Source of the DNA: Halorhabdus tiamatea SARL4B
GTDB lineage: Archaea > Halobacteriota > Halobacteria > Halobacteriales > Haloarculaceae
Direction of reading: 5' to 3'
Assembly: GCF_000470655.1 (NCBI RefSeq)
Contig: NC_021921.1
Span: 1,116,001 to 1,180,000 of the forward strand
DNA length: 64,000 nt
Positions 13,734 to 22,337 of this stretch are shown piece after piece. Made by a program: the position numbers and the translations under genes. The notes beneath the pieces were generated by a model. That model was not told the DNA's origin, made no database searches, and was given only the letters and a program-made list of their open reading frames with translations. Positions within the stretch are counted from its first letter, which is position 1. Each line of letters starts with the position of its first letter.

Positions 13734-13799
13734 GACCGGCGAAACGCGGCCACAGGCCGCGTCTGCTTACCCGAACAGCTCTCGCGCGTCGTCGATCGC
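13734..13799 (-). repeat. Duplicate of the sufS 3' end, distal copy
   Basis: These 66 bases match 13890-13955 with three mismatches. On the minus strand they repeat the last ten codons of sufS (IDDARELFG), the stop codon and a downstream hairpin CGCGGCC-aca-GGCCGCG. The copy is 156 bases downstream of the authentic gene end, so it lies outside the gene and is not translated from it. Confidence 0.9.
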
Positions 13800-13803
13800 C
13801 ACG

Positions 13804-13865
13804 CCACCTTTTTCCCGCTCGGGTCGCCTTCGGCGACCACTCGCGGCAAAAATCTGGACCAAAAA
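13804..13865. repeat. Palindromic element, copy 1
   Basis: 62 bases beginning CCACCTTTTTCC and ending CTGGACCAAAA, with a central perfect stem GGTCGCC-ttc-GGCGACC and outer T5/A5 arms. A second copy with the same ends lies at 21218-21284, where the stem is GGTAGCC/GGCTACC: one pair has changed on both sides, so base pairing is conserved. Located between the two copies of the sufS 3' end. Confidence 0.8.
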
Positions 13866-13889
13866 CCCGGTCCCTCGAAACCGCCTCGG

Positions 13890-13955
13890 GACCGGCGAAA
13901 CGCGGCCACAGGCCGCGTATGCTTACCCGAATAGCTCTCGCGCGTCATCGATCGC
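13890..13955 (-). repeat. Duplicate of the sufS 3' end, proximal copy (inside the gene)
   Basis: This is the genuine 3' end of sufS from the final codons through the stop at 13923-13925 and the hairpin CGCGGCC-aca-GGCCGCG, probably a transcription terminator. It is 63/66 identical to 13734-13799. Confidence 0.9.
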
Positions 13956-21067: not shown

Positions 21068-21133
21068 GGAGAAGCTGTCGAGTCAGTGCCGACCGGACCG
21101 CAGCAGCCCCCAAAATCCGTCAAAACCGGATCT

Positions 21134-21219
21134 CACTCCACAGCGACCGAATCGGCTGACTCGACTTCGACGGCTGTCCCTTCGGGCAACGGCGTCCGTT
21201 CGACCACCGTCCCAGTCCC
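21134..21219 (-). pseudogene. Detached C-terminal tail of the radical SAM gene
   Basis: On the minus strand this stretch reads GTGTVVERTPLPEGTAVEV and ends SADSVAVE followed by TGA at 21134-21136. The intact gene at 21297 contains 'DGTVVERTPLPEVSAE' near its end, so eleven residues (GTVVERTPLPE) occur in both. The most economical reading is that this was the original C-terminus, displaced when the intervening palindromic sequence was inserted. Nucleotide identity in the shared part is about 28 of 34. Confidence 0.7.
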
Positions 21220-21284
21220 ACCTTTTCCTCCTCGGGTAGCCGCGCTTCGCTTGGCTACCTCTCGTCGTAAAAGCTGGGCCAAAA
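21218..21284. repeat. Palindromic element, copy 2
   Basis: 67 bases with the same ends as copy 1 at 13804-13865 (CCACCTTTT... and ...CTGGGCCAAAA). The central stem is GGTAGCC / GGCTACC with a longer TTCG-containing loop. The C:G pair of copy 1 is an A:T pair here, a compensatory change. A further palindrome, CCGCCtcacttcgctcGGCGG, follows at 21330-21350. Confidence 0.8.
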
Positions 21285-21296
21285 CTACCACGGATC

Positions 21297-22337
21297 TCAC
21301 GCCGTTCGATCCGGGCGAACCGCCTCACTTCGCTCGGCGGAGACTTCCGGAAGTGGGGTCCGCTCGACCACCGTCCCGTCCACGGTGGGATACTGCTCGA
21401 CGACTTCGCCCTCCTCGAGATCGCCCTCCTGGATCATCTCCTCTAAGAGCCACCACGCGAGTTCGACGTGCTTGGACTTCTCGACGTAGTACTCCTCGGG
21501 GACGCCCAACTCTTCGAGTCGCTCGGCGTCGACCCAGGTCTTGCCGTAGACCAGCGTTCCGTCGTCGGTCGTTTCGTCGAAGGGTCGGCGGACATTCCTG
21601 GCCATGCGCTTGAGGCGATTGCGGTGCTGGGCGGCGTCTTTGAACACCGACGTACAGAAGTAGACTTTCGGGTGTTTGGCCATCGAGTCGAGCACGTCGT
21701 GACTCCCCTCGACGGCGCTCATGTGGCCGTCCTTCAGGTCGAAGCCCTCCTGTTGCATCCGACGGTAGTTGCCGTCGCTCATCTCGAACTCGTTGACGTT
21801 GACGAACTCGGCGGCCCCTTCCTCGACGAACGTGATAAACTCGTCTTCCGGTCGGATGCCGGGGATCTCGAACGCCGGCGTGAGCCCCTCCTCGCGGGCG
21901 ATGTAAAGGATGTCCTCCCACTCGGTGCCGTGGAGGTCACCCCACATGTCCAGGGGCGGGTGGAACCGAATTTCGTCGAGGCCGGCCTCGGCGAGCCGTC
22001 GCATGTTCTCGCGCCCGCCGGTGATGCCCGTGTACAGGTGGATGTGGTGGTCCTCGCCGAACTCGTCTTTGAGCAGGGAGATGTACCGCGTCGTGCGGTC
22101 CATGACCTCCTGGGGTTCGCCGCCAGTCAGCGACGACCCCATCGCGTCCATGCGTTTTGCTTCCTCGATGATGTCCTGGTCGTCCTCGACTTTCCGCTCG
22201 TTGGCGTAGACGTCGGTGACGTTCTTGCGGTTCTCGCCGAGCGGACAGTAAAAACAGTCACGCTGGTCGCAGTAGCCATACACGAAGATGACCATCTTCC
22301 CGCCCTTGGCGCACTGCTCGCAGCCCTCTGAAATCAT
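21297..22337 (-). CDS. Radical SAM protein related to pyruvate formate-lyase activase (COG2108-like)
   Basis: 346 residues. The [4Fe-4S]/SAM cysteines are in 'GYCDQRDCFYCPLGENR', spaced CX4CX2C rather than the usual CX3CX2C; an extra CxxC precedes them ('CEQC', residues about 6-9). 'SSLTGGEP' is the SAM-binding GGE motif. The ATG at 22337 gives the family-like start 'MISEGCEQCAKGGK'. Reaction unknown. The last ~15 codons appear to derive from an inserted palindrome, since a better-looking original tail lies detached at 21134-21219. Confidence 0.88.
   Translation of the reverse strand: MISEGCEQCAKGGKMVIFVYGYCDQRDCFYCPLGENRKNVTDVYANERKVEDDQDIIEEAKRMDAMGSSLTGGEPQEVMDRTTRYISLLKDEFGEDHHIHLYTGITGGRENMRRLAEAGLDEIRFHPPLDMWGDLHGTEWEDILYIAREEGLTPAFEIPGIRPEDEFITFVEEGAAEFVNVNEFEMSDGNYRRMQQEGFDLKDGHMSAVEGSHDVLDSMAKHPKVYFCTSVFKDAAQHRNRLKRMARNVRRPFDETTDDGTLVYGKTWVDAERLEELGVPEEYYVEKSKHVELAWWLLEEMIQEGDLEEGEVVEQYPTVDGTVVERTPLPEVSAERSEAVRPDRTA

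Follow-up and report, generated by a model that had tools for sequence, protein, structure and literature searches.

A hairpin family tied to duplicated gene 3' ends in Halobacteria, with a putative 164-bp cassette at a radical SAM gene of Halorhabdus tiamatea

A radical SAM gene of Halorhabdus tiamatea SARL4B ends in a new, probably imported tail, and a 3' end of the native type lies stranded beyond a conserved hairpin, here termed H. We assign a probability of about 0.6 to the reading that a small cassette without a gene of its own was imported into the homologous gene end and left the native tail stranded behind it. Four things are observed directly: the anatomy of the unit, the link between H and copies of gene tails, the conserved fold of H, and the presence of foreign against native tails at three genes.

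The host gene lies on the minus strand of the window (the whole 64,000-nucleotide stretch analysed; 21297..22337) and encodes a radical SAM protein of 346 amino acids (Pfam Radical_SAM, E 7e-8) with orthologs across Halobacteria. Its stop codon is at 21297-21299. The 164-bp unit (21214..21377, minus strand) consists of the attached tail, the stop codon, a spacer, the hairpin and a GACT linker, and is 97-98% identical to both units of another Halorhabdus genome, G005. The attached, foreign gene 3' end (T; 21297..21377, minus) was delimited by sequence and ortholog comparison and reads GTVVERTPLPEVSAERSEAVRPDRTA up to the stop codon. It includes the palindrome CCGCCTCACTTCGCTCGGCGG (21320..21340, no strand), which encodes part of the new C-terminus. 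The spacer of 19 bp 3' of the stop codon (21278..21296, minus) finishes in the T-tract TTTTGGC, directly ahead of the 60-bp hairpin (CCAGCTTTTACGACGAG...CGAGGAGGAAAAGGTGG; 21218..21277, minus). H was identified by pattern match, folds and family covariation, with z-scores of -4.0 for the single-strand DNA fold and -4.5 for the RNA fold. Four bases further on begins the detached native tail (T'; 21133..21213, minus), an in-frame copy of the gene end on the same strand that reads GTVVERTPLPEGTAVEVESADSVAVE and a stop codon and matches the attached tail type of the genome G006. The unit is mostly non-coding and contains no gene of its own. Palindromes of the CCGCCTCACTTCGCTCGGCGG type also occur directly 3' of stop codons in other units, where the spacers are similar.

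The original prediction had described the old tail of the gene on the minus strand, displaced beyond the element and 164 bases downstream. The in-frame copy is indeed found at 21213-21133, and the distance from the start of the attached tail to the start of the detached tail is 164 bp. The prediction had also derived the new tail from the palindrome, which is correct in part, as CCGCCTCACTTCGCTCGGCGG encodes a portion of it, but the moving unit also holds the last part of the gene itself.

Seven Halorhabdus genomes, including that of the window (G000), were compared at this locus. In G006, which has no hairpin, the gene ends in GTVVERTPLPDGSIEGTESAQSVRAE and a stop codon, and the detached tails of G000 (GTAVEVESADSVAVE) and G005 (DGSIDGTESAQSVRAE) are of the same kind. 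G005 carries two tandem units followed by a detached tail ending in PDGSIDGTESAQSVRAE and a stop codon, whose DNA is 91.4% identical to the attached tail of G006. The proposal that the gene had acquired a new tail from the insert and that its old tail had been displaced is borne out by this comparison: the C-terminus of the element-free ortholog is of the detached type, and the palindrome-encoded tail has a sole carrier among the orthologs, G005, which itself contains the element in two copies. Judged from these sequences, the detached tails are most likely the vertically inherited ones. The unit of G000 is identical to that of G005 at 159 of 164 positions (97.0%), and to the second G005 unit at 161 of 164 when the extra 54 bases of the latter are set aside. 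Identity between the two genomes is 91.2% in the gene body (79.2% at third positions), 85.6% in the PAP2 gene region downstream and 69% in the detached tails. An identity of 159/164 has a P of 3e-11 under the third-position divergence and of 0.003 under that of the whole gene body. Because the unit is more alike than either the gene body or the detached tails, it points to horizontal sharing, and the unit was most likely exchanged between the two species after their split.

The consequence for the protein may be limited. The element had been predicted to alter C-termini, and tail residues are indeed swapped here, but most haloarchaeal radical SAM orthologs stop directly after VERTP(L/V)A; the swapped residues thus belong to a variable extension and their effect may be small. 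In many other copies of H both tails are identical, so the protein is unchanged there. In the draft assembly of G001, contigs break inside the radical SAM-type unit (end of C17 and start of C24; L097, L103), and such repeats may therefore split contigs in short-read assemblies.

Foreign and native tails were also distinguished at two further genes. At hisE, the detached tail of G004 (MDLSDLRAELRERR) equals the tail of its relative G003, which has no H, while the attached tail (MDLADLRAELRERR) matches G002. At gatA, H is absent from four genomes; G001 and G002 have an attached tail type and H in common, and the native DNA that flanks their outermost tails is shared. The radical SAM gene of Haloarcula amylolytica has a detached tail (SNGADAGRATADD) as found in Haloarcula japonica and Haloarcula sebkhae, and its attached tail is non-native. 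The presence or absence of H thus varies at one and the same gene (radical SAM, hisE and gatA). Among 80 radical SAM orthologs, the arrangement is scattered over members of Salinibaculum, Haloferax, Halorussus, Saliphagus and Haloarcula, whose close relatives lack it.

H was searched for with the pattern CCANNTTTT-N20-80-AAAAGGTGG (H form CCAnnTTTT...AAAAGGTGG), and the reversed pattern served as control. The pattern matched 18 sites in G000; at family level 77 of 96 members had matches and at class level (Halobacteria) 140 of 194 genomes, the control remaining almost silent. Many genomes contain 10 to 48 copies, and the hairpins mostly measure 46-80 bp. Since the pattern fixes both ends of H, the invariance of the end columns is partly by construction and copies with other ends are missed, for example in Haloarcula (L074) and Saliphagus (L073). 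Across 23 copies of a single length class, compensatory changes maintain the stem, with 52 double-sided cells where shuffles gave 12.7, and 96.5% of the stem cells are paired compared with at most 56% in slid controls. Of 118 copies, 89 have internal GA/GA (G.A) mismatches, which the pattern does not fix, on the H strand, and 4 have them on the complementary strand. This strand specificity implies that one particular strand of H is selected to fold. A role as single-strand DNA rather than RNA is favoured, because T-tracts of the kind that terminate transcription in Haloferax (PMC7237163) sit ahead of the right arm. In an Rfam scan of the window at gathering thresholds, one tRNA was the only match, and H matched no Rfam model. 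A second palindrome (CCGGGAGAGCAAGCTCTCCCGAGCC...), which looks like an element that itself targets H, was observed to follow TTTTTGGTCCA within the foot of the hairpin at L202 (G000, C2, about 798,020-798,080), at L190 and in the radical SAM flank of G002.

A one-strand fold of this kind is what would be expected if H were a palindrome mobilised by a transposase that acts on single-strand DNA and leaves a long target duplication, and small mobile repeats whose mobilisation is unexplained occur in Haloquadratum (PMC3119063). A variable duplication of tens of bases is, however, atypical of such enzymes, and an attached tail can be as unlike its detached counterpart as the tails of different species are; we consider this origin very improbable. 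Inverted repeats between the right and left flanks of H were at background level only. A virus-borne element was also considered and rejected, as the 24 viral contigs that matched two patterns were judged near chance for the size of the collection.

The association of H with gene ends was evaluated in 118 copies with flanks. In 56 of them a direct repeat of the 3' end of the left gene follows H, and in 54 of these 56 the gene points into H. In the aligned repeats, the tail copy begins 0-9 nt past GGTGG, with two exceptions. The inserted segment is about 100-240 bp long and always carries the same H, at many unrelated genes; the targets include hisE, gatA, pheT, polC, dapD, sufS, argF, spt5, citrate synthase and panE, among others, with names assigned from sequence except for those run through Pfam. 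A census covered 864 kb of G000, the window included, with 757 predicted genes; four of these had a copy of their last 60 nt within 500 nt downstream (score of at least 44), against none in two control sets. For both the census and the orientation test, the gene calls were open reading frames with codon-position composition, as distinct from curated annotation. In three of the four matches H separates the two copies, and the remaining one is a short tandem repeat; the radical SAM gene is absent from them because its stop codon has moved. Tail duplication as a general haloarchaeal habit was accordingly rejected, tail copies occurring essentially only at H.

The window contains a second unit of this type (13767-13925), downstream of a cysteine-desulfurase-type gene (Pfam Aminotran_5, E 1.6e-149; stop codon at 13923-13925). 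H, found by the pattern, lies at 13804..13857 on the minus strand, and is followed by the detached 3' end of the gene (AIDDARELFG and stop codon; 13767..13799, minus; census score 56) and then a copy of its spacer. The same site is occupied in G005 and G006.

A hairpin followed by sequence matching a gene is also the layout expected if H formed the right end of an IS1341/TnpB element that used the tail copy as its guide. This possibility is largely refuted and has almost no probability left: only 1 of the 26 tnpB genes in G000 lies within 500 bp of any of the 18 H copies, a position that led us to reject an omega-RNA guide, and the tail matches exceed the guide length and keep codons with synonymous changes. 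Template and variable repeats as in DGR systems were dropped as well, because many tail differences are synonymous and not adenine-directed.

The remaining 62 of the 118 copies have no tail copy. In 28 of these, a convergent gene on the GGTGG side has its stop codon no more than 6 nt away from H, and in only 2 does one on the other side; others adjoin tRNA ends. T-tracts terminate transcription in Haloferax volcanii (PMC7237163), and H carries T4-T6 tracts in both directions, adjoining gene ends. These tracts and the distance of 0-6 nt from convergent stop codons suggest that H may act as a terminator.

Partial 3' ends of tRNA-Pro and tRNA-Arg were observed beside H (L003, L002, L102), as left by insertions at tRNA ends, and in G000 these displaced pieces lie 190-240 bp from the intact tRNA gene. 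Two copies of H about 0.8 kb apart (L104, L109; G006, C1, 1,842,635-1,843,532) are flanked by a tRNA-Arg and, on the other side, by an aminopeptidase-like gene with a duplicated tail.

H units could also be the remnants of integrative elements whose integrase used the 3' end of a gene as attachment site, as at tRNA genes, with only the borders remaining. Attachment sites are integrase-specific, however, whereas here one short segment with the same H sits at unrelated genes, and no larger island with such borders was seen. The proposal draws on the displaced tRNA 3' ends near some H copies and on the restored gene end and displaced native end at radical SAM, hisE and gatA, which are the classical anatomy of integrative elements (PMC4383910, PMC8371274). 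On balance we regard it as improbable.

Tandem arrays of units were detected in Salinibaculum, Haloferax, G004, G005 and G027, in line with the cassette reading. In a further explanation, the duplication arose in place. Replication would stall at H and the new strand would slip back by one unit, giving a tandem gene end with hairpin; the last hairpin would later be lost, and ordinary recombination between strains would produce mixed patterns. Perfect 171-bp tandem units in Salinibaculum, repeated units in other genomes, last copies that often break off inside the left arm of H, and the gatA gene of G004, where both tail copies are of the native type, are in agreement with slippage. Slippage alone leaves unexplained why attached tails are foreign at radical SAM, hisE and gatA, why distant genera have the same junction and why a hairpin is usually absent after the last tail, and as a full account it is unlikely, though it deserves serious consideration. 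It is the main rival for the first step, in which H and a gene end were joined and duplicated, and the two processes may each hold, one after the other. The two tails are nearly identical in about half of the cases with a duplication; together with the native pair at gatA of G004, this means that in-place duplication fits there as well as import followed by gene conversion.

In the cassette reading that we prefer, the mobile unit would comprise a copy of the 3' end of the host gene with its stop codon, the spacer and H, with the foot of the H stem as right border. Its donor would have been a related haloarchaeon, and recombination inside the conserved gene end its way in. The gene would keep a working 3' end, now that of the donor, and its own end would be pushed beyond the hairpin. 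The two tail copies could then serve as homology arms: recombination between them would remove the cassette cleanly, giving a state like that of G006, or multiply it into tandem units or pass it to another strain. Recombination through the tails is thus, we infer, the route of spread, and once two tails flank H, ordinary homologous recombination can carry out these steps. H would probably be kept through its T-tract terminators, which face both ways between convergent genes. Against the cassette count the half of the H copies that have no tail copy and the fact that no recombinase, circle or excision product was seen in this analysis. A bolder version, which we put forward tentatively and consider rather doubtful, is a dedicated recombination system in Halobacteria, in which the folded H strand would be the end of small circular cassettes that homology would direct to the 3' ends of core genes. 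Species would in this way exchange gene endings and terminators by an integron-like process with no fixed attachment site.

A protein family of 180-190 amino acids was observed with 20-40 copies per genome in one genus (G041, G053, G064; relatives G009 and G075; loci L253, L255-L259, L262-L267 and L269). It had no match in Pfam or PHROG and none that was convincing in NCBIfam. The copies inspected mostly have H about 80-180 bp past the stop codon, some with their own detached tails. As an autonomous element, this open reading frame with H, multicopy in five genomes of the genus, was rejected: it is absent from Halorhabdus and almost all other genera, and is therefore not required.

A class-wide hairpin linked to gene-end duplication would give archaea a new way of exchanging the last codons and terminators of essential genes, and H units would cause C-termini to be misread in annotation. 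With its two tail copies, each site is a natural marker of gene transfer from one haloarchaeal species to another, and the conservation of the fold on one strand offers a concrete starting point in the search for the protein acting on H.

In the open-access literature we found no description of haloarchaeal intergenic hairpins tied to gene-end copies. For REPs, to our knowledge, tail duplication is not known. REP/REPIN sequences with their RAYT transposases share with H the many-copy intergenic palindromes downstream of genes, a possible role in termination and a one-strand fold (PMC2817692, PMC3116915). The SMRs of Haloquadratum walsbyi are repeats of 80-110 bp with inverted ends and no transposase gene (PMC3119063). 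Like SMRs and MITEs, H is short, multicopy and of inverted-repeat structure, with no transposase. The two families are set apart by description: SMRs target transposons and PATEs without target duplication (PMC3119063), whereas H occurs where core genes end and goes together with copies of these gene ends. Islands at gene 3' ends (Islander, PMC4383910; archaeal tyrosine recombinases, PMC8371274) likewise restore the 3' end and displace the native one, but they differ from the short H insert, which has no recombinase and belongs to one hairpin family at many unrelated genes; the 164-bp unit, with no gene of its own, carries no site-specific integrase. In architecture, the attC sites of integron cassettes, archaeal ones included, are similar to H: the hairpin is imperfect, has unpaired bases and a tip that varies, and closes a short cassette on its 3' side; integron cassettes also form tandem arrays (PMC9668308). 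An integron cassette was rejected, as there is no shared attI platform and the integron integrase IntI (TIGR02249) gave no match above cut-off in seven Halorhabdus genomes, the weak matches being like those in all controls. Finally, H differs from the T-tract terminators of Haloferax volcanii (PMC7237163) in being a conserved, horizontally shared structure that is linked to tail copies.
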